A stretch of 64,000 nt of DNA, taken from the NCBI GenBank assembly GCA_014323545.1, contig CP058647.1, positions 2,892,001 to 2,956,000 on the forward strand. The letters are read 5' to 3'. The notes beneath the pieces are model-generated. The model was given only the letters and a program-made list of their open reading frames with translations, did not search any database and was not told where the DNA came from. This stretch comes from Hyphobacterium sp. CCMP332 (lineage in GTDB: Bacteria > Bacteroidota > Bacteroidia > Cytophagales > CCMP332). Every line of letters starts with the position of its first letter. Position 1 is the first letter of the stretch. This document shows, one piece after another, positions 1,863-31,587 of this stretch. A program made the translations under genes and the position numbers.

Positions 1863-4085
1863 CTAAACTCTGACACCCAGTACACAAACATCATCCAGTT
1901 GATCTTGATTGCCTTTCCAATCATCAAATTCTTTGCTTAATACATTTTTCTGTTCGTGAATGTCGGATTCCACCAGATTCAAAACCAATTGTTTAAGTGG
2001 TTTATAACGGTATTTTTTATTTTTTGGTCCTCCAAACTGATCGGCAAAGCCATCGGACATTAAATAGAATAACTCACCTTTTTTAAATTTGATATGATGT
2101 TTGGTAAATGGCTTTTGATGACTTGAAAATCCAATCGGTTGTTTATCGCCTTTTATTTCGGCCAGTACAAATTGTTCGCTTTCCATTATTTCAATCGCCT
2201 CTGATCGCTTTTCCCGAATGATGTAAATAGGATTGTTGGCGCCGGCCCATTCTGCTTCCAAAGTATTTAGATTGAGAGCGATGAGCGAAATATCCATTCC
2301 ATCTTTGCTGTCTTCGATATCTTCTGACTGACTTAATTGATTGACAATTTTTTCCCTCAATTGATTTAATATCAAATCAGGGGTAATGTGAACCTCCGTA
2401 CTTATGATCTCATTTAGATAAGCAGTCCCTAACATCGTTAAAAATGCTCCTGGCACACCATGGCCTGTACAATCTGCCACAGCCAGATACCACCAGTTAT
2501 CCTGCTTCACGCTCCAGTAAAAATCACCGGAAACTATATCCCTTGGCCTGAAAAAGACGAAATGTTCCGGAAGTACGGGCGCTACGGTTTCTTCTTCTTT
2601 TAATAATGCATTTTGAATTCTGCTGGCATATCGAATGGATGAAAGTATTTCAAGGTTCTTCTTTTCAATGATCATTTTCTGATCTTCAATTTCCCGCCTC
2701 TGTTTTCTTGAAAGCCTCAAGGCACGATAAATAAAAAATGATACGACTATTACTATAAAAATGATGGCGCTGAGAAACAATTGTCCCATCCTTTGTCTTT
2801 TTAATTCCTCCTGATCTAGGGCCAATTGTTTTTGATATTCAGCATCTTGCAAAGCCTGCTTTTTTTCATATTCGTATTTTGCTTCCTGGCGGCCTATTTC
2901 CTGTTGTTTTTCCTGTGAAAAAATACTGTCTTTCAGATTGGTATATAATTCGTGATAGACCAAAGCGCTGTCGTATTTCTTAATGGATTTGTATGTGTCA
3001 TACAAATGATTGTAATGGTACAATTGATTTTGCTTCGCGCCGATTTCCTGAGACATCTTAAGTGCCTGCAAAAAAGCATTAATCGCTTTGCGGTATTCCT
3101 GATTAGTAAAATAGATAGCTCCAAGAGTGCTATAGGATTGCATAATATTGTAGGGACTGTTTATTTGTCTGGCTATTTTTATGCCTTTTTTCAGGTAGTA
3201 TTTGGCTGAATCCTGAAGACTGTTTTTTACATCATCAATATTGGCATATTGATATAAATCGTGAAATGTATTAAGAGAATCAAGGGGAAAGCTATAAAGA
3301 TGATTTAAGATTTCGGCAATGTTTTGGTAGATAATGCTAAGCCCGTTATAGTCTTTGTATTGTAATTTGTATTCGGCCGATTTCTTAAAAAAATACAGGG
3401 ATTTGGTAAATTTTCCCTGGTTGGCGTAAATCCCACCAATATTGGTATAGCCGTAGGATAAACTCTTAATATCATTGAGCTTTTTAAAAATATGTATGGC
3501 ACGCTCATAATAATGTAAGGCAGTATCAAATTCCTGCTGATAATAATAAATGATTCCAATATTGGTCAGGGCGCCACCGATGCGTTGATCATCATTCAAT
3601 TTTTCCAATACTTTTAAGCCTTCGTGCAACAATTCCAACGCTTTTGAATAATCCGAACGCTCTGAGTAAACATTACTTTGATTTACCAAAACTGTACCCT
3701 TTAACGATTCCAGATCAAAGGAGTCGGCAATTTCAAGGGCCCGCTCAAAAAATGCAATAGAGGAATCGTATTGCGACTTTGCCAGGCCAATGGTACCCAT
3801 AATATTGTATGCTTTCCCACGGCCTTTGTGCCAGTTTATATTTTGAGATAAGGCAAGCGTTTTATCGGCGTAAATTTGAGATTCTTCTATTTCTCCAATG
3901 AATTTGTATTCATAGGCCAGGTCATGCAAATGATTTACCGTATTGCTGTCTTCTTGTGTTACATCCAAAATTTTAAGCAATGAATCGATGTTGGGATTGG
4001 ATTCTAATTCACTGATATTCTCTTGTCCAAATAAAGGCAGCAAAGGAAATAAAAGAAGCGTTGACAGAATTGCATTGAATCTCAT
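1863..4085 (-). CDS. TPR-repeat, membrane-anchored SpoIIE/PP2C-type serine phosphatase
   Basis: A 740-residue signalling protein. Residues 1-21 are a signal peptide. Residues about 50-375 hold tandem TPR units (repeated Ala/Tyr/Asn-rich pairs such as ALTNIGIIYYYQ). A Gln/Lys/Glu-rich coiled coil leads into one membrane helix at about 434-455, then a second short coiled coil. The C-terminus from about 500 is a SpoIIE-type PP2C domain with metal-binding aspartates in SGDFYW (about 519), VADCTGHGVPG and DGFADQFGG. In this architecture the TPR part is periplasmic and the phosphatase cytoplasmic, probably acting on an anti-sigma-antagonist-like or other phosphoprotein. No partner kinase or STAS protein is adjacent, so the substrate is unknown. 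Confidence 0.9.
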   Translation of the reverse strand: MRFNAILSTLLLFPLLPLFGQENISELESNPNIDSLLKILDVTQEDSNTVNHLHDLAYEYKFIGEIEESQIYADKTLALSQNINWHKGRGKAYNIMGTIGLAKSQYDSSIAFFERALEIADSFDLESLKGTVLVNQSNVYSERSDYSKALELLHEGLKVLEKLNDDQRIGGALTNIGIIYYYQQEFDTALHYYERAIHIFKKLNDIKSLSYGYTNIGGIYANQGKFTKSLYFFKKSAEYKLQYKDYNGLSIIYQNIAEILNHLYSFPLDSLNTFHDLYQYANIDDVKNSLQDSAKYYLKKGIKIARQINSPYNIMQSYSTLGAIYFTNQEYRKAINAFLQALKMSQEIGAKQNQLYHYNHLYDTYKSIKKYDSALVYHELYTNLKDSIFSQEKQQEIGRQEAKYEYEKKQALQDAEYQKQLALDQEELKRQRMGQLFLSAIIFIVIVVSFFIYRALRLSRKQRREIEDQKMIIEKKNLEILSSIRYASRIQNALLKEEETVAPVLPEHFVFFRPRDIVSGDFYWSVKQDNWWYLAVADCTGHGVPGAFLTMLGTAYLNEIISTEVHITPDLILNQLREKIVNQLSQSEDIEDSKDGMDISLIALNLNTLEAEWAGANNPIYIIREKRSEAIEIMESEQFVLAEIKGDKQPIGFSSHQKPFTKHHIKFKKGELFYLMSDGFADQFGGPKNKKYRYKPLKQLVLNLVESDIHEQKNVLSKEFDDWKGNQDQLDDVCVLGVRV

Positions 4086-4125
4086 ATACAGGCTTATGGA
4101 TTCAATTTATAAAAAGCATTCCTAT

Positions 4126-4680
4126 TTAAGAATTATTCATTGCCCTTTTAGCTTGAGCGATATGTCTTAATTCATGGTTTAACAGAAATAAAAAACAAAC
4201 CCCCAATCTCAATTTTAGCCAGGATAAAGCACTTTGTACTTTTATTTTGTTGATATCCAGGTCTTTAGAATTTTGAATAAAGCCCCTTAACTTTTCATGG
4301 AATTCAAAAAAACGATCAAACACCTCTTCTTTATTGAGATTATCCAATTTACCGGGTTCGAAAAAGTCAAACGTTTTCATCGGCATTTTTGCTTTTCCGT
4401 TTGATTTTAAACCGACTGAGCTGACCATTATATCTCCAAATAGTCCTGCTTTATATTTTTTTTGAGGGTTTTTAGGTACATCATTTAATGCCTTATTCAA
4501 ATTGGGAATATAGACCTGGTAGGTTTGATTTAAATGATCAATGCATTCCAATGCGCTCCACTTTTCAGCAGAGGGCTTTTTCTTGAGCAGATGAGCATCC
4601 AATTGCTGCCATTTTTTTAAAATGCTATTTACCTCTTCCCAGTTTTTTTCTAATTCGGAGAAATACAATTGGATTTCCAT
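4126..4680 (-). CDS. DinB-family protein
   Basis: A 184-residue protein matching the DinB/YfiT four-helix fold: an N-terminal helix with KPSAEKWSALECIDHLNQ, where the His is a usual metal ligand, and a C-terminal NHELRHIAQAKRA, which supplies the other histidines. Family members are metal-dependent, often thiol-transferase-like enzymes; the substrate cannot be read from sequence. It is transcribed in the same direction as the upstream Crp-like gene, 54 bp downstream of it, so it may share that transcript. No signal peptide; probably cytoplasmic. Confidence 0.8.
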   Translation of the reverse strand: MEIQLYFSELEKNWEEVNSILKKWQQLDAHLLKKKPSAEKWSALECIDHLNQTYQVYIPNLNKALNDVPKNPQKKYKAGLFGDIMVSSVGLKSNGKAKMPMKTFDFFEPGKLDNLNKEEVFDRFFEFHEKLRGFIQNSKDLDINKIKVQSALSWLKLRLGVCFLFLLNHELRHIAQAKRAMNNS

Positions 4681-4734
4681 TTTTATAATTTTTACAAATC
4701 AACAAATCACATTCAATATCTCTCTTGATCCAAA

Positions 4735-5322
4735 TCAAGAAATACGTTTGGCTCGCATCCGGCTAAATGTTTCAGGGCTCATGCCCAAATAGGAAGCGAG
4801 GTATTTTTGAGGAATTTGCAATAATGGTTTTGGAGCTCGTTTCATAAAGGCTTTAAAGCGCTCTTCGGCAGTGCAGCTTTGCATTTCTATTTCTCTTTTA
4901 ATCCGGCCAAAGAGAATGTCTTTTAAAAACTCAGAATACCATTGAAATAGCATTGGAATTTGTTCAAAACTACTTTGCCAGTCCTCATAATTGATTCTTA
5001 AAAAACTTGAAGGACTAATGCTTTCAACATAGAATTCAGACTTTTCCAGATACAGAAAAGATTGAAAATCACCGGAGAAACTTCCTTCAAAAGAAAAACC
5101 CAAAATATGTTCTTCGCCTTTCTTGTCAATAAAATATAATTTTTGCACACCCTGTATCACAAAATAGAAATAGGGGTCTATGGCACCGGCTTTTACCAAA
5201 AATTCACCCGATTGCATTGAAAAAGGCTGCCATTTATTCAGAAAATGAGCTAGTTCTATTTCATTTAGCTCAACAGACTTTTTAATTAAGTTGGCAAGTT
5301 TTTCCCTGGCATCATTCATCAA
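4735..5322 (-). CDS. Crp/Fnr-family transcriptional regulator
   Basis: 195 residues. Residues about 20-125 form a cyclic-nucleotide-binding-type jelly roll (GEFLVKAGAIDPYFYFVIQG is a typical stretch). The C-terminus has a helix-turn-helix ending (YLASYLGMSPETFSRMRAKR). No four-cysteine FNR iron-sulfur motif is visible, so it is probably not a classical oxygen-sensing FNR. The ATG overlaps the 3' end of the pirin gene by 11 bp, so the two are translationally coupled. The small size is typical of Bacteroidota Crp-like proteins that respond to unknown stress or electron-transport signals. The effector is unknown. Confidence 0.88.
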   Translation of the reverse strand: MMNDAREKLANLIKKSVELNEIELAHFLNKWQPFSMQSGEFLVKAGAIDPYFYFVIQGVQKLYFIDKKGEEHILGFSFEGSFSGDFQSFLYLEKSEFYVESISPSSFLRINYEDWQSSFEQIPMLFQWYSEFLKDILFGRIKREIEMQSCTAEERFKAFMKRAPKPLLQIPQKYLASYLGMSPETFSRMRAKRIS

Positions 5323-6193
5323 ATTCTTCTATTAAAACTCCCATTTTACCCATTTGATAATCTCGCATGGCCTGCATGATTTGGCTTTGAGTATTCATTA
5401 CAAATGGTCCATAAGTTTCCAATGGTTCGTTCAAAGGTTTGCCTGCCAGCAAAATGCCGCGAAAATCCGATTCGGTCTTTAGATGAATGGTATCTCCATC
5501 ATTTTTAAACCAAACAAGATTTTTTCCCTCAACAGGAAATTTCTTATTGAATTCTACAGCTCCATCCAATAGGTAAATAAATGAGTTATAACCATCGGGA
5601 ATTCTAAATAGGTATTCTTTATCTTTTTTAAAGTTTAAACGTAAAGCAATAATTTCCGAATTGCTCTGAACAGGGCCTTTTATGCCCTCGAATTCTCCTG
5701 AAACTACTCTTACCGATTTTCCCTCGGCACTTGAATCTGTCAATGGTGTTGAAGCTTCGTCCAGCGCCTGATAATTGGCAGGATTCATTTTTTTATCGGC
5801 CCTTACATTGATCCAGAGTTGAATTATTTCCTGGTACCCACCTTTTTCAATCAGAGCTTTGGACGGTCTTTCGCTATGAATTATTCCCTGACCCGCGTCG
5901 ACCCATTGGGTACCACCTTCCTTAATAATGCTGCTATTTCCAAGTGAATCTCTATGGTGAACATCGCCTTCAAAAATAAAAGTAACCGGGCTAAAGCCCC
6001 GATGTGGATGGGGGCCAATACCTACATCATTGGCTCTTCTATTTTGTGGCACTTTTACTCTGGCATGATGCAAAAGAAGAAAAGGATCTATTTGCTCTAC
6101 ATTTTGTGTAGGAATAGGCTGCAGTACGGGAAAGCCGCCCATATCTACAGGGTGTGCCGGAAGGATTTTGTGAATTAGCTTAAACTCTGCCAT
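5312..6193 (-). CDS. Pirin-family cupin protein
   Basis: 293 residues with two cupin halves. The N-terminal cupin holds the family's metal-binding signature: [13 protein letters not shown] around residues 62-74, and a second ligand pair in GIIHSERP around 103-110 (His and Glu). The C-terminal half ends with the usual pirin segment ([23 protein letters not shown]). Bacterial pirins bind Fe or Mn, and some are quercetinases or redox-sensitive regulators; the role here is open. It is the first gene of a pirin-crp pair, and it is divergent from the DUF255 gene with only 36 bp between start codons, which leaves both promoters in the same short spacer. Confidence 0.9.
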
Positions 6194-15502: not shown

Positions 15503-15569
15503 GATTACTTGAAACCGGAGTCTATCATTTTGCCAATCCAACAATTTCCCAGACCTTTGTTGTGGTATT

Positions 15570-15740
15570 ATAGGTGTTTCTCTAAAAACGAAACTTAATA
15601 GGGAATCCGGTGTAATCCCGGAGCTGTCCCCGCAACTGTAAGCCCCCTTTCCATTTTGGAAAGTAACATGTTTTTACACTACAGCCACTGTCGCTAGACG
15701 GGAAGGCGGTAAAAACGGGTGAGCCAGGAGACCTGCCATA
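15570..15740 (+). promoter_or_regulatory. Cobalamin (adenosylcobalamin) riboswitch
   Basis: The region contains the conserved blocks of a class I B12 riboswitch in order: an AGGTG-containing P1/P2 start, AATAGGGAATCCGGTG, a GAGCTGTCCCCGCAACTGTAAG stretch, GCCACTG, CGGGAAGG, and GTGAGCCAGGAGACCTGCC (the B12 box region). It lies directly upstream of the BtuB-like receptor gene, with about 115 bp between riboswitch and start. B12 binding is expected to turn the operon off. No other gene lies in the 455 bp between mutS2 and the receptor; the rest holds the hairpins listed separately. Confidence 0.95.
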
Positions 15741-15854
15741 ATACACAATATCAATGCTTTCGGGTGAAAGGCATAGGTGATAAACACTTGTTGTTTTTTC
15801 ATTTATTCTTCCAATCCAAAGGCTTTGAGATTTTTATTATCTAATGAATAAAAA

Positions 15855-24307: not shown

Positions 24308-26479
24308 ATGTTGAGAATAATAGTTTTCTTTTCTTTATTGACTTTCTTTTTGGTCGATGACCTGAAATCGCAGGGTTTGCGGGAGTTCAAAGCCAAACGA
24401 GCCATTGATGAGATAAAACTCGATGGAGAAATGATAGAAGAAAGCTGGAATATTGCTGAAGTAGCAAATAATTTTTACCTCAATTCCCCCAACGATACGG
24501 CTGCTCCTTCATCTCAAACGGAAATTCGAATGCTTTTTGATGACAAAGCCATTTATTTCTTTGCAATAATGCAGGATAGTTCGACAAAACCCTATACCAT
24601 TGAAAGTCTTAGAAGAGATTGGGGATTTCAGAGAACAGATAATTTAAGTATTTACATCGATCCATTTAACGATAAAACTACGGGGTTCTCATTTGGACTT
24701 AGTCCTTATGGCGCTCAAAGAGAAGGTTTGATCTTTGAGGGGCAAAACGTGAGCACCGACTGGGATAATGTTTGGTATTCTGAAGTAAAGCGCTACGATA
24801 ATTACTGGACCGCAGAGATTAAAATTCCTTTTAAAACCCTGAGATACAATAATGAAAGCGAATTCTGGAATATCATATTTCTGAGAAATGATTTAAAATA
24901 CAATGAAGTTTCAACCTGGACACCTGTTCCCCAACAATTCAATGGATCAAATCTTGGATATTCAGGTTCGGTAATTTTTGTTGATTCCCTGCCAAAACCA
25001 GGGCCGAATATTACTTTAATTCCTTTTGTAGCAGGAAGGGATGTCAGAAATTATAACGAATCCAATAGTTTAAGTGAAATTGAAATCGGTGGAGATGTAA
25101 AGGTTGGAATAACGCCATCGCTCAACCTCGATCTCACATTTAATCCGGACTTTTCACAGGTAGAAGTGGATCGGCAGGTGACCAATCTGGACCGCTTCGA
25201 GTTGTTTTTCCCTGAAAGGAGACAATTTTTCCTGGAGAATGATGATCTTTTTGGAAGACTGGGTTTTCCAAGAACCAGGGTATTCTTTTCCAGACGAATT
25301 GGTTTACGAAGACCAATCATTTATGGTGCGCGTCTTACCGGAAAAGCATCAGATAATCTTCGGATTGGTTTGTTTAATGTGCAGGAGGGTGGAAATTCAA
25401 ATCAAGATACCTTGAATAATTCTACAGTCGCCATATTACAGCGAAAATTATTTGACCGTTCCAATATCACTGCAGTATTTACAAACCGGCAAGGTTACAG
25501 GCCTTTTTCCGATAGTCTTTCAAATGAGGGTTTTTTAGCCAATGATTATAACCGCGCTTATGGATTTGAATACAATTTACTTTCATCGGATAATCAATGG
25601 ATAGGTGATATTTCAATTTACAGATCTAATAGCCCGAATAAAAACACCAATAATTTTGGACACTCAGGGTTTATAGGATACAATAGTAGAAATTTATTTA
25701 TTGGCTGGGGTCAGGAAATGATTGGGGAAAACTATCAACTCGATTTAGGCTTTCTTCCAAGGACCGGATATTATAAGTTTGGTCCCAATTTCAGATACAC
25801 TTTTTATCCCAATAAATACGGAGTTATCAGGCATGGCCCTGATGCGAGCTTTGAAATATTCACAAATCAGCAATGGGAAAGAACCGATCAGTTTACTAAT
25901 CTGGGATATTCAGTAAGGTTATTGAATACCAGTGAAATAGCTTTGAATTATAATAATACCTATATACTGTTACAGGATACCTTCTTAGTAGGGTTTAATG
26001 AAAATTTCAGAGATACGCTTGTCACGGGAGAGGATTATAATTGGGATGAATACAGTTTTGCATACAGTACGGATGTCCGAAAGAAAATAAATGGTGGAAT
26101 TGCACTTCAATATGGAGGTTTTTTCAGTTCTACACGTTATAATGCAAGAGGATATATCAATTGGCGTTTTCAACCTTACGGCTCCTTTGGTGTAGATTTA
26201 GATTATAACTATCTTGACTTAAGTGGTGAAGGAAAAGACGGCGGTAATTTATTGGTAAGTCCAAGGCTGGACTTAACTTTGAGCGATAAAATATTCCTCA
26301 CTACTTTTGTACAGTACAATGAGCAGATCAACAATTTCAATATCAATAGCAGATTTCAATGGAGATTCAAACCTGTTTCCGATTTTTTCATTGTATATAC
26401 AGAGAATTACTTTAGCGATTCGTTTAAAGCTAAAAGCAGAGCACTAGTTTTTAAATTAACTTATTGGTTTAATGTTTAA
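24308..26479 (+). CDS. DUF5916 outer-membrane barrel protein with CBM9-like N-terminus
   Basis: 723 residues from the ATG at 24308; a TTG at 24284 lies in a -7-like AATATTTG and is unlikely. A signal peptide is followed by a carbohydrate-binding family 9-like sandwich (about 35-215: IDEIKLDGEMIEESWNIAE, FDDKAIYFFAIMQD, YWTAEIKIPFKTLRY). The rest has the DUF5916 hallmark (LDLTFNPDFSQVEVDRQVTNLDRFELFFPERRQFFLEN, quoted in part) and many beta strands of an outer-membrane barrel with a terminal aromatic residue. Function is unknown in the family. The paaE start codon overlaps its end by 8 bp, so the two are coupled, an unexpected partnership. Confidence 0.87.
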   Translation: MLRIIVFFSLLTFFLVDDLKSQGLREFKAKRAIDEIKLDGEMIEESWNIAEVANNFYLNSPNDTAAPSSQTEIRMLFDDKAIYFFAIMQDSSTKPYTIESLRRDWGFQRTDNLSIYIDPFNDKTTGFSFGLSPYGAQREGLIFEGQNVSTDWDNVWYSEVKRYDNYWTAEIKIPFKTLRYNNESEFWNIIFLRNDLKYNEVSTWTPVPQQFNGSNLGYSGSVIFVDSLPKPGPNITLIPFVAGRDVRNYNESNSLSEIEIGGDVKVGITPSLNLDLTFNPDFSQVEVDRQVTNLDRFELFFPERRQFFLENDDLFGRLGFPRTRVFFSRRIGLRRPIIYGARLTGKASDNLRIGLFNVQEGGNSNQDTLNNSTVAILQRKLFDRSNITAVFTNRQGYRPFSDSLSNEGFLANDYNRAYGFEYNLLSSDNQWIGDISIYRSNSPNKNTNNFGHSGFIGYNSRNLFIGWGQEMIGENYQLDLGFLPRTGYYKFGPNFRYTFYPNKYGVIRHGPDASFEIFTNQQWERTDQFTNLGYSVRLLNTSEIALNYNNTYILLQDTFLVGFNENFRDTLVTGEDYNWDEYSFAYSTDVRKKINGGIALQYGGFFSSTRYNARGYINWRFQPYGSFGVDLDYNYLDLSGEGKDGGNLLVSPRLDLTLSDKIFLTTFVQYNEQINNFNINSRFQWRFKPVSDFFIVYTENYFSDSFKAKSRALVFKLTYWFNV

Positions 26480-27599
26480 GAAGATATTTAAAAATAAAAA
26501 AGAAGATAAGAAAGAGGAGTCAAAATCCTCGGCAAGGTATTATGATTTGAAAGTTTCTAAAATCAACAGAGAAACAAAAGATGCAATAACAATATATTTT
26601 GAAAACCCGGAATCGGGATTGCCTGAATATAAATCAGGCCAGTTTTTAACACTGGTGGTTCCCGTTGGAGGGAGCGAACTTCGACGTTCTTACTCTCTTT
26701 GCACAACCCCCTTCGCCGATAAAGAGATGGCCGTTACTGTAAAAAGGATCGAGGATGGGGTTGTATCTAATCATTTGAATGACACCCTTAAAGAAGGCGA
26801 TACGCTTAAAGTAATGGAACCCATGGGCGTGTTTACTACTAATTATAGCACAAACACATATCGTCATTTGATACTAATTGGTGGAGGTAGTGGAATTACC
26901 CCTCTGATTTCAATTTTGAGAAGTGCGCTTATAAAAGAACCTAATAGTTTGGTTTCCCTGATATACGCCAATAGAGATGTTGACTCTATTATTTTTAGAA
27001 ATTATCTGAATGAATTGGAGAATGACTATGGCGATCGATTATGCATCAAGCACATATTGGATAAACCTGCTGATGACTGGGATGGTCATTCGGGATTATT
27101 AACACCGGAAAAATTAAAAAGCATTATTTCTGAATTGCCTTCAAGAGATGATGAATTCACAGAATTTTTCTTATGCGGCCCTACAGGCATGATGGAAATA
27201 GTGCGGGATACGCTTGAGGAAATGAAGATTGACAAGAAAAACATCCACAGAGAGAGCTTTGTAAGCAAATCTTCAAATCCGCTGAACAATGCAACCCAGG
27301 AACAACAAAGCGACCTTGGAAGAGAGGCGCGTGAAGTCACCATAATTTTAGATGGCGAAGAACATCAATTTCAGGTGGAGTCCGAAGAAACAATATTAGA
27401 AGCGGGTCTCGATCGCGATATCGATATGCCCTTTTCCTGTCAGAGTGGATTATGCACCGCTTGCAGAGGCAAATTGGTTTCAGGTAAAGTGGAAATGGAT
27501 GAATCAGAAGGCCTTTCGGAAAAAGAAATCAATGATGGATATGTACTTTGCTGTGTCGGTCATCCAATGACCGATGATGTCAAGATTGAAATCGGTTAA
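26472..27599 (+). CDS. paaE: Phenylacetyl-CoA epoxidase reductase subunit PaaE (FNR-type, 2Fe-2S)
   Basis: 375 residues. After a short Lys-rich start come an FAD-binding domain (RRSYSLCTTP, the usual RxYS motif), an NAD(P)-binding domain (LIGGGSGITPLISILRS, FFLCGPTGMMEIV), and a C-terminal plant-type 2Fe-2S ferredoxin domain with cysteines in SCQSGLCTACRG (about 322-330) and VLCCVGHP (about 360). PaaE passes electrons from NADPH to the PaaAC di-iron centre. The catalytic subunits lie about 5 kb away in a separate operon on the other strand. A general flavodoxin-reductase-like hydroxylase reductase is the alternative, but the order of domains and the paa genes nearby favour PaaE. Confidence 0.85.
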   Translation: MFKKIFKNKKEDKKEESKSSARYYDLKVSKINRETKDAITIYFENPESGLPEYKSGQFLTLVVPVGGSELRRSYSLCTTPFADKEMAVTVKRIEDGVVSNHLNDTLKEGDTLKVMEPMGVFTTNYSTNTYRHLILIGGGSGITPLISILRSALIKEPNSLVSLIYANRDVDSIIFRNYLNELENDYGDRLCIKHILDKPADDWDGHSGLLTPEKLKSIISELPSRDDEFTEFFLCGPTGMMEIVRDTLEEMKIDKKNIHRESFVSKSSNPLNNATQEQQSDLGREAREVTIILDGEEHQFQVESEETILEAGLDRDIDMPFSCQSGLCTACRGKLVSGKVEMDESEGLSEKEINDGYVLCCVGHPMTDDVKIEIG

Positions 27600-27632: not shown

Positions 27633-29360
27633 ATGGAAGTAAAAGTTCAAAGAAACTATTTACCTGAAAACTTTAAGGTTGAAGATTGGGATTCGATAAA
27701 ATCGTATTTCGAAGATTTAAAAAATAGGGATTTCAAGTCAAAGGATGATTTTTTACAATGGTTAAAAGATTTGAATGAACTTGAAGCAGCACTACAGGAG
27801 GATCTTGGCCGCAGTTATATTAAAATGACCTGTTATACCAATAACAAGGAATACAGGGACCGATTTAATTTCCTGATTACTGAAATTGAGCCAAGGGTTT
27901 CGCCAGTTATAAATGATCTTAACAAAAAGATAGTCGAAAGTCCCTTTTTGAATGATATTGATATCCAAGGATTTGAAGTAATGATTCGGGGATTAAAAAC
28001 GCAGATTGAATTATTTAGGGAAGAGAATGTTTCATTGTTTTCAAAAATTCAGGGGCTCCAAAGCAAATACGGAGAGATAACCGGGGCATTATTTATTGAG
28101 CATGAGGGTCAAGAGCTCACTTTACCTCAGGCTTCGAATTATCTTATGTCTAACGACAGAAAGGTAAGAGAAGATGTTTTCTATAAAATTTCAGAAGCCA
28201 GGGCTTCAGTTGAAAAAGAACTGGATGATCTTTTTAATGAAATGCTCCCTATACGACAGCAGATTGCTGAAAATGCCGGCTTTAAAAATTTCAGAGATTA
28301 TATTTTTAAAGCTAAGGGCAGATTTGATTATTCGGCCGCAGACTGCAAGACCTTTCACAATTCGGTAAAAAAGGAAGTAGTACCCTTATTGGATGAACTT
28401 GCTAAAAACAGAAAGGAAAGACTTGCAATTGATCAATTAAGGCCCTGGGATCTCAAAGTTGATAAGTTCGGTAAGGATGCTTTAAAACCCTTTGATAGTT
28501 CTGAAGATCTAATTGAAAAATCAATAACCCTTTTTAATAAAATTGATCCATTTTTTGGTTCTTGTCTAAGCACCATGAAAAAAATTGGGCACTTGGATTT
28601 AGAGTCCAGAAAAAATAAAGCGCCTGGTGGTTACAATTACCCACTGGATGAAATCGGGGTTCCTTTTATATTTATGAATGCCACCAGTACATTCAGAGAC
28701 ATGATTACGCTGATGCATGAAGGAGGGCATGCAATTCATTCCTTTTTAGTTCGCGATTATGACTTCCTTTCCTTTAAGCACCCTACTGCTGAGGTTGCAG
28801 AATTGGCAAGCATGAGCATGGAATTGCTAACAATGGATCACTGGAATATATTCTTCAGTTCCGAGGAGGAATTTCTAAGAGCAAAGGAAGAGCACCTTGA
28901 ACAAATAATTGAAACCCTTCCCTGGGTAGCGGTAATTGATAAATTTCAACACTGGATTTATGAGAATCCAAAGCACAGCATTGAAGAACGAAGACAAAAA
29001 TGGTTGGAAATTTTTGATGAGTTTCACAGTGAACTGATCGACTATTCTGGTCTTGATGCTTATAAAAGAATGATCTGGCAAAAACAGCTTCATATTTTTG
29101 AAGTTCCTTTCTATTACATAGAGTATGCAATAGCTCAATTAGGAGCCATTGGGATTTGGCTTAACTACAGGAAAAATAAAGACGAAGGATTAAACAAGTA
29201 TAAAAGGGGCTTGGCATTGGGTTATACCAAAACGATTCCCGAAATTTATTCTGAAACCGGAATAAATTTCAATTTCACGGACGAACACATTTCAGGATTG
29301 ATTAAATCAATCCAATCTGAACTAATTGATTGCAAAACAAAAATCTCTGATCTCAAATAA
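27633..29360 (+). CDS. M3-family oligoendopeptidase (PepF-like)
   Basis: 575 residues, no signal peptide. The zinc motif MHEGGHAIHSF (HExxH form: HEGGH, about residue 361) is followed by a downstream Glu in the PTAEVAELASMSMELL segment, as in thimet/PepF peptidases. The N-terminal half is a long helical cap. These cytoplasmic enzymes degrade short peptides. It lies 33 bp after paaE in the same direction and is possibly cotranscribed with it, though it has no link to phenylacetate metabolism. Confidence 0.93.
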   Translation: MEVKVQRNYLPENFKVEDWDSIKSYFEDLKNRDFKSKDDFLQWLKDLNELEAALQEDLGRSYIKMTCYTNNKEYRDRFNFLITEIEPRVSPVINDLNKKIVESPFLNDIDIQGFEVMIRGLKTQIELFREENVSLFSKIQGLQSKYGEITGALFIEHEGQELTLPQASNYLMSNDRKVREDVFYKISEARASVEKELDDLFNEMLPIRQQIAENAGFKNFRDYIFKAKGRFDYSAADCKTFHNSVKKEVVPLLDELAKNRKERLAIDQLRPWDLKVDKFGKDALKPFDSSEDLIEKSITLFNKIDPFFGSCLSTMKKIGHLDLESRKNKAPGGYNYPLDEIGVPFIFMNATSTFRDMITLMHEGGHAIHSFLVRDYDFLSFKHPTAEVAELASMSMELLTMDHWNIFFSSEEEFLRAKEEHLEQIIETLPWVAVIDKFQHWIYENPKHSIEERRQKWLEIFDEFHSELIDYSGLDAYKRMIWQKQLHIFEVPFYYIEYAIAQLGAIGIWLNYRKNKDEGLNKYKRGLALGYTKTIPEIYSETGINFNFTDEHISGLIKSIQSELIDCKTKISDLK

Positions 29361-29362
29361 CC

Positions 29363-29494
29363 TTAATCGGATAATCCTTCATTAATTTTATTGTCTTCCT
29401 GAATTCTTACAGAATAAGAGAATACCTTTCTGAATGCAGAAATATAGATCTTGTGTAATTCCTGAATATCTGATTGTCTTGAAATGGTTTTCAT
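29363..29494 (-). CDS. Small ORF, 43 codons (third of a tandem set)
   Basis: ATG at 29494 to TAA at 29363 encodes a 43-residue basic-to-acidic peptide (begins MKTISRQSDIQELHKIYIS, ends NEGLSD). It has no signal peptide or Cys and reads like a helix (IQELHKIYISAFRKVFSYSVRIQE, in part). It lies 24 bp downstream of the 46-codon ORF on the same strand and converges on the M3 peptidase gene 2 bp away. It fills an otherwise empty gap and keeps sensible codon use. No homologue is recognised. Coding is inferred, not shown. Confidence 0.55.
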   Translation of the reverse strand: MKTISRQSDIQELHKIYISAFRKVFSYSVRIQEDNKINEGLSD

Positions 29495-29518
29495 AATTAT
29501 TACATTTTAAATTATTAA

Positions 29519-29659
29519 TCAGTGTGCATCAAAATCAATCATCCATGATGGTCGTTTATCCTTGAACTTTGAAAAGGGTTTTTCTACAACCATCTTAATA
29601 CTCTTGCTCAGAGTATTTTCAAGAGGTTTTGATTCAATATGCTTATTCTCTTTTTTCAT
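29519..29659 (-). CDS. Small ORF, 46 codons (second of a tandem set)
   Basis: ATG at 29659 to TGA at 29519; the product is Lys-rich (begins MKKENKHIESKPLENTLSKS, ends SWMIDFDAH). It has a mixed charged, probably helical first half and a distinctive aromatic end (RPSWMIDFDAH). No signal peptide. It sits 75 bp after the 53-codon ORF and 24 bp before the 43-codon ORF on the same strand. A hairpin-forming stretch (29682-29710) and a -7-like AATATTTG lie between it and the first ORF, so it may have its own start of transcription. No family recognised. Confidence 0.55.
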   Translation of the reverse strand: MKKENKHIESKPLENTLSKSIKMVVEKPFSKFKDKRPSWMIDFDAH

Positions 29660-29681
29660 TGCCCATATTTATCGGATAGAA

Positions 29682-29710
29682 AGACGCCCTGATCAGAAAC
29701 CAGCACGTCT
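29682..29710 (-). terminator. Weak hairpin between two small ORFs
   Basis: On the minus strand AGACG ... CGTCT form five pairs, with an inner CTG/CAG extension, then TTTCT. It falls just after the 53-codon ORF and could end its transcript; the T-run is poor, so the call is tentative. Confidence 0.3.
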
Positions 29711-29734
29711 CAAACCATCCAAATCAAATATTTT

Positions 29735-29896
29735 TTACCAGCCATCTTCATCCGACGGATCATTTTGTCTGTAATAGGCATCTACGTTTTCTTCAGTTGC
29801 GTATGTACTTTCATAATAACTCTCCTGAGTAGCATCGTAATCTGCTTCAGAACCTATGACTCCCAGGAACAATAAAAGGCTTACTAAAAATGACAT
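29735..29896 (-). CDS. Small secreted acidic peptide, 53 codons (first of a tandem set)
   Basis: ATG at 29896 to TAA at 29735. The product begins with a hydrophobic segment (MSFLVSLLLFLGVIGSEA) that looks like a short signal peptide or membrane helix. The remainder is rich in Asp, Glu, Tyr, Ser and Thr (begins DYDATQESYYES, ends DPSDEDGW) and has no Cys. If cleaved after the hydrophobic stretch, the exported part would be about 35 acidic, Tyr-rich residues. A candidate promoter lies upstream at 29923-29949. It is divergent from the helical protein gene at 30055. No homologue recognised. Confidence 0.6.
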   Translation of the reverse strand: MSFLVSLLLFLGVIGSEADYDATQESYYESTYATEENVDAYYRQNDPSDEDGW

Positions 29897-29922
29897 ATTC
29901 GTTTAGTTTTTGGTTGTGATAG

Positions 29923-29949
29923 CAAAGTTTGGTCATTTTCATATATCAA
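29923..29949 (-). promoter_or_regulatory. Candidate promoter of the small-ORF cluster
   Basis: On the minus strand TTG is followed after 16 bases by AAACTTTG, one base off the TAnnTTTG -7 consensus, about 27 bp before the 53-codon ORF. The fit is reasonable but not exact. Confidence 0.4.
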
Positions 29950-30040
29950 GGTAGTACAAAAACTATAGTTTACTAAGTTCAAAATATGTTACTAAATTTG
30001 TTTATTAAATAAATAAAATGATTATATTGGTCACTGAAAG

Positions 30041-30048
30041 CATATTTG
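30041..30048 (+). promoter_or_regulatory. -7-like element of the helical-protein gene
   Basis: CATATTTG differs from TAnnTTTG only at the first base and ends six bases before the ATG at 30055, the same spacing as at mutS2, which would give a leaderless mRNA. Confidence 0.4.
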
Positions 30049-30054
30049 AGTCAT

Positions 30055-31587
30055 ATGAAGTTGTATCAAATTGTAGATTTACTAAGTAGACGAATAGATA
30101 AAAAAGATGTTCTATTCAACGGGGAAGAGCAAATAAACCTCGACGGAAAGCTTAAAGAGATGTATGAAGGTTTTGCCGAAGGCAAGTTTAAAACCGATGA
30201 AGATGCAGCTCTGGCTTTATTCGACAAAGGCCCTGACTATCCCTATTATTTTGAAGTCAAAGCAAAATTCAGAGATCAACTTCTAAAAAATCTTTTTCAC
30301 CTTAATTTAAGAAGTGGTAAGTTCTTACATTATTACCGATTGAAGAGTGAGGCAGAAACCAATCTTCAACAGGCCAAAATCCTTTTGGGAATGGGCCAGA
30401 AATTCAATGCGGTTTGGTTATTTAAACGAATATTAAGAGTAGCTGAGCCTTATCATTTTACTGACATACTAAAAGAATGCTATAGGAATCTTAAAAACCA
30501 AATGGTTTATGAGGGCAATGTCAGAAAATATGAAGAATACCAAAAAAAATGGTTGAAATGCAGAGATATTGCAAGTGCTGAAGAGCATGCAGAGGACTTG
30601 ATAAATCAAATCAGAGTGCGTTCTCAAAAGTCGGTGAAAGAAACCAAATCGACATTGGAATTTACTGAAAAAGCCTTTAAGACTATTTCAGATCTAAAAA
30701 ACAAATATGAGACGCCATTTTTAATAGCAAAATATTATACAATAGCAGAATCCTATTATTTAAGAAATTCTAATTGGGAAAAACAATTGGAGTTGTCTAC
30801 AGAAATTGACGAGTTGTCAAAAGAATATCCGGACAAATTTGCCGCGGTCCGGTTACATTCAAACCATGTATCTAAACTTTATGCATTGATTCTTCTAAAT
30901 CGCATAGAGGAAGGTTTGACTTATGTCCAGGATATCCTCGATGAATACAGAGAGGATAGCATTAATTACTATATAATTCTGGAGGATTACTATCTATTAC
31001 AAATGAGGGCCGGCAATTATGAGCAGGCCCTCAATATTGTGAAAATGGCCACTGAAAACCAGTATTTCGAACTGGTACCAAAAATATCAAGAGAAAGATG
31101 GGATATTTATCGCGAATATGCCCTTTTCTACTGCGATGAAATTTCTTCAAATGACATCGCTTTAATTAATTATTTCCCCGAATACTCAAAGGATAAAGTT
31201 GGATTCAATCTTCAAATTCTGATTTTACAAATACTCATTCTTTTACGAGATAATAAGTTTGATATGCTTTATAATCATATCGAAAAATTGAGAATGTATG
31301 AAATACGTCAAATCAGTAAATCCGATAATCGAAGAGCACAGTATTTTTTGAGACTCATACGCCTTCTGATCAATTACGATCTTGATTATGAAAAATGTAA
31401 AAAACAGGGGAATAAATTTTATAACCTGTTAATGAAATTTCCTGAAAGAGAGCAGCCTTATACAGAGGTAGAAATCATCCCTTATGAAACACTCTGGAAA
31501 ACTATATTAACAATGTTGAAATACTCAGAAAAGCGAAATGCAGATAATGGATTCGTCTTTGTAGAGGAAAAAATATTGGAATATTAA
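30055..31587 (+). CDS. Helical-repeat (TPR-like) cytoplasmic protein of unknown function
   Basis: 510 residues from the ATG at 30055; the TTG at 30046 lies in the -7-like element. There is no signal peptide or membrane helix. Almost the whole chain is predicted by eye to be paired amphipathic helices rich in Tyr, Leu, Lys and Glu (for example AKILLGMGQKFNAVWLFKRIL, in part), which suggests a TPR-like solenoid, but no standard TPR consensus or enzymatic motif is visible. It is divergent from the three small ORFs across a 158-bp spacer. A peptide-binding or scaffold role is possible but speculative. Confidence 0.8.
   Translation: MKLYQIVDLLSRRIDKKDVLFNGEEQINLDGKLKEMYEGFAEGKFKTDEDAALALFDKGPDYPYYFEVKAKFRDQLLKNLFHLNLRSGKFLHYYRLKSEAETNLQQAKILLGMGQKFNAVWLFKRILRVAEPYHFTDILKECYRNLKNQMVYEGNVRKYEEYQKKWLKCRDIASAEEHAEDLINQIRVRSQKSVKETKSTLEFTEKAFKTISDLKNKYETPFLIAKYYTIAESYYLRNSNWEKQLELSTEIDELSKEYPDKFAAVRLHSNHVSKLYALILLNRIEEGLTYVQDILDEYREDSINYYIILEDYYLLQMRAGNYEQALNIVKMATENQYFELVPKISRERWDIYREYALFYCDEISSNDIALINYFPEYSKDKVGFNLQILILQILILLRDNKFDMLYNHIEKLRMYEIRQISKSDNRRAQYFLRLIRLLINYDLDYEKCKKQGNKFYNLLMKFPEREQPYTEVEIIPYETLWKTILTMLKYSEKRNADNGFVFVEEKILEY

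Follow-up and report, generated by a model that had tools for sequence, protein, structure and literature searches.

A divergent small-precursor and helical-solenoid gene pair in the Bacteroidota resembles the peptide-signalling circuits of Gram-positive bacteria

Three short open reading frames (ORFs) in tandem, facing a long helical protein, raise the question of whether any of them encodes a signal for that protein. The locus lies in a 64-kb window, the whole stretch of DNA analysed here, which spans positions 2892001-2956000 of the single-contig, 3.33 Mb genome of Hyphobacterium sp. CCMP332. The original prediction, made from the letters alone, had described three minus-strand ATG ORFs of 53, 46 and 43 residues and, divergent from them over a 158-bp spacer, a 510-residue helical solenoid. 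All three small ORFs are present, in 694 bp between the stop of an M3 oligopeptidase gene (29360) and the start of the solenoid gene; the solenoid ORF is there as well, and its AlphaFold2 model is all-helical. We consider it probable that the first ORF, SP1, and the solenoid form one pair of a Bacteroidota peptide-signalling family working like RRNPP(A) circuits, the intracellular peptide quorum-sensing systems so far described as Gram-positive. The features of the locus, in window coordinates, are as follows.

29735..29896, minus strand: SP1, proposed signal-peptide precursor, an ATG ORF of 53 residues divergent from the solenoid gene
29852..29896, minus strand: hydrophobic leader of SP1 (residues 1-15), with the leader pattern common to 32 aligned precursors
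29738..29761, minus strand: C-terminal core of SP1, DPSDEDGW (residues 46-53), the proposed mature-peptide region
29519..29659, minus strand: SP2, an ATG ORF of 46 residues, of uncertain status and outside the conserved unit
29363..29494, minus strand: SP3, an ATG ORF of 43 residues, of uncertain status and outside the conserved unit
30055..31587, plus strand: helical solenoid gene encoding 510 residues, a proposed cytosolic receptor for the peptide
29897..30054, no strand: divergent spacer of 158 bp, the expected site of both promoters and any operator

Homologues of the solenoid are found in 15 of the 59 genomes of a set of relatives, the window's own genome included, and, across the order, in 106 of 390 genomes (E<=1e-20). 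Upstream of the window solenoid, and of eight homologues (L001-L009), there is in each case a small divergent ORF that starts with hydrophobic residues. In two genomes of the same family, G001 and G002, this ORF has 47 residues and ends in RPGDGEGW or RPGDGDSW, with spacers of 164 and 163 bp. When SP1 was the single query sequence, the search missed both counterparts and reached that of a third genome, G008, at E 0.11 only; relatives of SP1 came to light because of their position beside the solenoid. Among 80 named solenoid loci drawn from the genome collection, 77 hold a divergent small ORF composed of a hydrophobic leader, a variable linker and a C-terminal Gly/Trp core. Seventy of these were found by a fixed rule that includes the Trp and seven by reading (L050, L056, L058, L062, L067, L091 and L118); the latter have another Gly-Trp spacing, and L050 has a terminal Phe in place of Trp. 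The exceptions are L102, with no such ORF, L073, with a leader-type ORF lacking Trp, and L077, with no upstream sequence. Under a stricter rule a precursor was present in 68/79 divergent upstream regions, as compared with 0/79 on the same strand upstream, 2/80 and 3/80 downstream, 0/80 antisense of the solenoid and 15/1580 Markov resamples.

The same association was seen when position was ignored. With a profile built from 32 precursors, 380 whole genomes were scanned, and all 40 hits at E<=1e-4 lay 159-508 bp upstream of a solenoid gene and pointed away from it; at E<=1e-3 and E<=1e-2, 48/50 and 53/68 hits lay beside solenoids, with a median spacer of 360 bp over the 53 linked pairs. SP1, itself a row of the profile, scored E 7.3e-8 in its own genome. 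The rows came from beside solenoids, and the species of some may be among the genomes searched, which weakens the test; the informative part is that strong hits did not occur elsewhere. The original prediction had left it to comparison with relatives whether the small ORFs and the solenoid stay together, and for SP1 and the solenoid they do.

Several loci depart from the simple pair. In the genus g77, two or three tandem solenoid genes stand behind one precursor (L196 331-4835, L204 2732-5781), perhaps giving one peptide several receptors. In Adhaeribacter soli, three precursor genes in tandem are nearly identical in leader and core (L075 1809-2472). On a 44-kb viral contig from IMG/VR (L158), a precursor-solenoid pair (2594-4419, 4453-5667) adjoins a gene that reads as a tyrosine-type integrase, and the pair may thus travel on mobile elements. 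In G008 (L216 7735-8079), the gene about 10 bp after the precursor encodes, as judged by sequence reading, a small receiver-like protein and not an opp component; this protein is a possible output partner.

In an alignment of 32 precursors the leader takes up about 14 residues, most of them hydrophobic, and often reads MxELIxxxLLQL; 59/71 precursors have Gln or Asn at positions 10-12. The linker is variable and often rich in Thr/Ser. In the 52 precursors with a single core, this core is usually G-G-[ST]-G-x-W, with Gly at -5 in 37, at -4 in 49 and at -2 in 46, and the Trp is 0-5 residues from the C-terminal end in 50; the core of L055, for example, is GGTGTWDDSN. The SP1 core aligns with the ..RPGDGEGW and ..RPGDGDSW of its nearest relatives and with the GGxGxW of others. 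In 19 genes the core is repeated, from 2 to at least 14 copies, the latter in L116, whose ORF runs off its contig, and the repeated cores are variants such as HGTSGWGDG and TGGTGWGEG. Identity between repeats is 0.93-1.00 from -5 to +4 of the Trp and 0.45 and 0.65 just outside; because conservation stops so sharply at this block, a peptide of about 10 residues is indicated.

Core copies within a gene differ at synonymous sites (proportion of synonymous differences, pS, 0.376; of nonsynonymous differences, pN, 0.015), and 16 of the 19 genes have no amino-acid change between copies. Between relatives, pN/pS was 0.27 for the leader, 0.57 for the linker and 0.15 for the core, as estimated from 45 of 71 precursors in 14 groups with pairs pooled and non-independent, near saturation, and with the SP1 core itself outside the measurement. 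The dN/dS-type comparison suggested in the original prediction thus finds strong purifying selection on the core of SP1's relatives. From these figures we read the precursors as translated, selected peptides. Sequence searches of the precursors against Pfam, NCBIfam and PDB returned nothing reliable.

Import genes are the third element of these loci. Of the 80 named loci, 72 encode an OppA homologue upstream of the solenoid gene and on the same strand as the precursor, and it lies beyond the precursor in all 65 OppA loci with a rule-found precursor; six of the others have a precursor found by reading, and L102 has oppA and no precursor. Of the eight loci without a same-strand OppA, three (L077, L116 and L120) are at contig edges, and in L096 the gene is on the other strand. 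An OppB homologue is on the same strand in 47/80, a count that the 3-kb flanks often cut. Pfam found SBP_bac_5 in 9/9 OppA proteins tested from named loci (a tenth query, an incomplete OppB piece, was unmatched) and, in a second set, SBP_bac_5 in 3/3 OppA and BPD_transp_1 in 6/6 OppB/OppC proteins, with oppB and oppC both present in the two operons tested. These are the domains of the Opp/App permeases of Bacillus; here, unlike there, the genes stand beside a precursor gene, and no permease ATPase gene was noticed by eye in four operons (L212-L215). The window's genome encodes two OppA proteins elsewhere, one of them with oppB and oppC in an unlinked oppABC. Importer, precursor and receptor genes are side by side in many named genera, including Hymenobacter, Pontibacter, Rufibacter and Adhaeribacter. 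Finally, distances between cores correlate with distances between solenoids given OppA (partial Mantel test, partial r 0.32, 0/2000 permutations, 61 of 71 precursor loci), which we rate as weak evidence, since shared phylogeny could also account for it and seven loci were dropped by hand and others for short solenoid calls or a missing OppA. Gene order and selection support the view that precursor, importer and solenoid would form a functional unit.

Does the solenoid look like a peptide receptor? The original prediction had assigned it to no known family, and the window protein indeed has zero matches in Pfam or NCBIfam. For 51 members of the family no Pfam or NCBIfam family covers the protein, none named is an RRNPP family, and at most two members match any one Pfam family, the most-matched being TPR_12 (best E 3e-4). 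No signal sequence was seen by eye. The AlphaFold2 model is confident (mean predicted local distance difference test score, pLDDT, 90.1; predicted template-modelling score, pTM, 0.86) and has 22 helices. When the best 1000 chains from Foldseek were compared with it a second time by VIA-align, ranks 1-8 were all Rap and NprR, with Z from 17.6 to 16.1. The top match was 8rst, the Rap of phage Phi3T with pheromone (Z 17.6, 290 aligned residues, root-mean-square deviation 4.2, model residues 174-496), and others included 4gyo, Rap with competence and sporulation factor (Z 17.4), 6t46, the pLS20 Rap with Phr* (Z 16.8), NprR 5dbk (Z 16.1) and AimR 6s7i (Z 15.1); the alignment with AimR 5zvv (Z 14.3) spans model residues 1 to 490. 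The predicted TPR-like fold is thus one shared with RRNPP receptors, but not exclusive to them. When the N-terminal part was modelled alone (pLDDT 84), matches were confined to residues about 85-143; residues 1-84 gave no fold and no listed helix-turn-helix protein, which does not exclude such a domain there. Viral structures gave no match to the model at E<=0.001, and the window solenoid was unmatched in phage sequences.

Two further solenoids were noted in passing. One Hymenobacter plasmid carries a paralogue of the L066 solenoid. The window's genome encodes a second solenoid (G000:C1:1015746-1017233; L016, L207) that has no precursor upstream and adjoins a gene reading as an FtsX/MacB-like permease.

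Taken together, these results suggest a circuit whose order of events would follow by analogy with RRNPP systems. The hydrophobic-leader precursor would be made and exported, proteases would release a core peptide of about 10 residues, and Opp would return it to the cytoplasm, in the window's genome by way of the oppABC operon elsewhere on the chromosome. There the peptide would bind in the solenoid groove and alter what the N-terminal part of the solenoid does; as a guess, the divergent promoters might be regulated by the circuit. Export through Sec is uncertain, because the leader differs from the basic N-terminus of RRNPP propeptides.

The closest known counterpart is Rap-Phr, in which, as passages of PMC11343458 describe, the propeptide gene adjoins that of a cytosolic TPR-type receptor, import is by Opp, and the pheromone is repeated 1-4 times in some propeptides; RRNPPA pheromones are given there as 5-10 residues at the C-terminal end of the propeptide, and a core of about 10 residues would be at the upper end of that range. 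The pair described here would share with Rap-Phr the adjacent propeptide and TPR-type receptor genes, the short C-terminal peptide, the repeats and uptake through Opp, and Rap chains are its top structural matches. It differs in having no sequence match, a Bacteroidota host, a leader mostly without basic residues, opp genes that adjoin the precursor, one gene with 14 or more repeats and an N-terminal part that is not recognised. With AimR-AimP (arbitrium) and NprR-NprX it has in common a helical receptor and a small peptide gene, but the gene order here is divergent and the peptide codes are others.

RRNPP subfamilies differ widely among themselves, according to passages of PMC9765709. The family described here has the C-terminal TPR-like helical fold of their receptors, as judged from the AlphaFold2 model and VIA-align, as well as a neighbouring small gene for a propeptide that ends in a short candidate pheromone, whose release is putative. 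Sequence homology to known receptors was not found; of the basic N-terminus and following hydrophobic stretch that PMC10075063 describes, in the passages at hand, for RRNPP propeptides, the stretch is present and basic residues are rare. Because the homology and the basic N-terminus are both lacking, we do not file the family as a member of RRNPP. Earlier searches looked elsewhere, as far as passages of their reports go: RRNPP_detector covered complete Firmicutes genomes only (PMC10075063), and a 2022 survey searched Firmicutes (PMC9765709). In the titles and abstract openings that searches of open-licence literature listed, no RRNPP-like or peptide/Opp system was reported for Bacteroidota. 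The N-acyl-cyclolysine pathway described in part of PMC13419125 does operate within Bacteroidota, but its signals are chemically unrelated small molecules, not gene-encoded peptides. If the proposed circuit is right, gene-encoded peptide signalling extends to a large Gram-negative phylum, and one would have to ask by what route a peptide gets across two membranes. Since genome sequences reveal the peptide codes directly and the three genes are side by side in many named genera, the circuit is immediately testable.

A number of observations weigh against this interpretation. Lys or Arg occurs within residues 2-12 of just 3/71 precursors. On the solenoid side, Foldseek with the full model, from whose list the VIA-align ranking was taken, listed generic TPR matches only; helical proteins outside RRNPP score nearly as well (Rpn6 Z 16.1, LGN Z 14.9), so that the fold supports a receptor without proving it; the family profile found no RRNPP chain in PDB at E<=1; and residues 1-84 yielded no recognisable effector domain. 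No opp genes adjoin the pair in the window, in its two nearest relatives (L048, L049), in L050 or in L073. The leader rule has a background once the Trp condition is dropped, with 61/79 divergent upstream regions as compared with 5/79, 2/80 and 3/80 in controls, and 15 of the 68 profile hits at E<=0.01 are not beside a listed solenoid, nine of them in open frames of more than 200 residues; one of the 15 (G096:C68) does have a previously unlisted solenoid ORF on its contig. Solenoids occur in just 23 of 395 genomes sampled across the phylum (E<=1e-15), and distant ones (L010-L018, which include the own-genome paralogue L016, and L020 and L022) have no such ORF upstream. In 20 further regions, picked mainly as distant or duplicated, the rule found a precursor in 7 (L188, L191, L196, L197, L199, L205 and L206), and the profile adds one in L204. 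Since distant or duplicated loci are often without a precursor, the pairing is not a trait of the whole solenoid superfamily.

Some of these points would suit a precursor that is a membrane anchor, whose Gly-Trp cores dock the solenoid at the inner membrane, with repeats providing multivalency and no peptide released. TPR-like solenoids commonly bind short motifs, leaders with basic residues are rare, core repeats reach at least 14 copies and some pairs have no neighbouring opp. We nonetheless consider an anchor unlikely, given the OppA gene on the precursor's strand in most loci, the sharply bounded 10-residue block between variable linkers, which fits cutting, and best structural matches among receptors for imported peptides. 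A bacteriocin-like or modified peptide, with the solenoid as regulator or immunity factor, seems very unlikely to us: small leader-core genes, three of them in tandem in L075, are in keeping with it, as is a weak Pfam match to a YxzE-like putative bacteriocin in 2/32 precursors (best E 0.0015), yet the transporter linked to the pair belongs to the binding-protein importers, and no maturation enzyme or exporter was noticed among the neighbouring ORFs, which were read by eye with no family search made.

The family could also be real elsewhere and the window's SP1 alone a decayed or chance ORF. Its core lacks GGxGxW and keeps just the acidic Gly-Trp end, and just two same-family genomes, both missed by the single-sequence search, are there for comparison. 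Against this stand a position and divergence as in G001 and G002 (spacer of 158 bp versus 164 and 163 bp), the same leader pattern with an acidic Gly-Trp or Ser-Trp end, and a codon usage better than that of all 1000 shuffles, and we regard decay or chance as more doubtful still. Least credible of all is that the small ORF is a Trp-codon attenuation leader peptide of the opp operon and the solenoid a mere neighbour. In most loci the ORF does stand ahead of oppA on its strand, and all of the 77 but L050 have Trp (which the finding rule required for 70); but the window, L048, L049 and L050 keep the pair with no neighbouring opp, conservation between repeats is nearly as high for the other core residues as for Trp, and repeat arrays are long. 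We conclude that a signalling pair of SP1 and solenoid remains the probable interpretation.

The two other small ORFs fare differently. Searches of 59 genomes gave background matches only for SP2 and likewise for SP3, and in the two nearest relatives the roughly 270 bp from the SP1-like ORF to the next gene contain no counterpart of either. These searches were low-powered, because the single-sequence search with SP1 nearly missed true relatives too. SP2 and SP3 may be real genes, as 0.56% of 5000 first-order Markov resamples of the 374 bp that hold them yield such a pair, and against stop-free shuffles the codon-usage level of SP2 is reached by 0/1000 and that of SP3 by 5/1000; two such ORFs are also found in 7/342 same-size tiles of the window, coding tiles included. 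The pattern that would speak against the original prediction, small ORFs unconserved beside a conserved solenoid, is what we found for SP2 and SP3 within the reach of these searches; for SP1 it is not. Its proposal of an undescribed peptide/receptor pair accordingly has strong support for SP1 and the solenoid, from their conserved divergent pairing, selection on the core in relatives, Opp genes by the precursor in most relatives and best structural matches to Rap, NprR and AimR, and lacks support for SP2 and SP3.

How far does the arrangement extend? Outside the order, 15 of 16 loci were testable, and six (L224, L226, L227, L228, L230 and L234, all outside the class) carry a divergent ORF whose leader is of the same type, versus 1/47 control stretches. 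Four of the six, from one family (f44), have IDRxED-like tail codes (FDRYED in L228), not GGxGxW. The same leader with a changed tail would fit diversification of the peptide code. We are evenly divided over the broader proposal of a phylum-wide Gram-negative counterpart of RRNPP, with one leader, one solenoid family, lineage-specific codes (GGxGxW in Cytophagales, IDRxED in one family from a different class) and, in Hymenobacteraceae-type genera, the importer in the locus. If true, two-membrane bacteria would have a gene-encoded, re-imported peptide language, whether by separate origin or by ancient common descent. In L224, from a family outside the class, two tandem IDRxED-type precursors (471-656 and 1067-1240) stand beside the solenoid.

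In the window, the original prediction had placed a candidate promoter upstream of SP1. We could not substantiate it: the Bacteroidetes -7 promoter motif, TAnnTTTG, is missing from the spacer in the direction of SP1, with a single occurrence in that of the solenoid. Its frequency in the spacers of 71 relatives (16 in the solenoid direction and 18 in the precursor direction, versus 16.2 expected from shuffles) is that of chance. An Rfam scan of the window at gathering thresholds found no RNA family in this region. On one flank, the M3 oligopeptidase gene (27633-29360, assigned by Pfam) converges on the small ORFs, and M3-type peptidases can degrade signal peptides. Next to it is an oxidoreductase gene (26472-27599) with FAD, NAD and 2Fe-2S domains in Pfam, which we take to be PaaE-type; in G001 and G002 it is the oxidoreductase, not the M3 oligopeptidase, that adjoins the precursor-solenoid pair. 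A 226-codon ORF on the other flank has no Pfam match above the cut-off. Elsewhere in the window there is a cobalamin riboswitch at 15554-15754 on the plus strand (102 bits).

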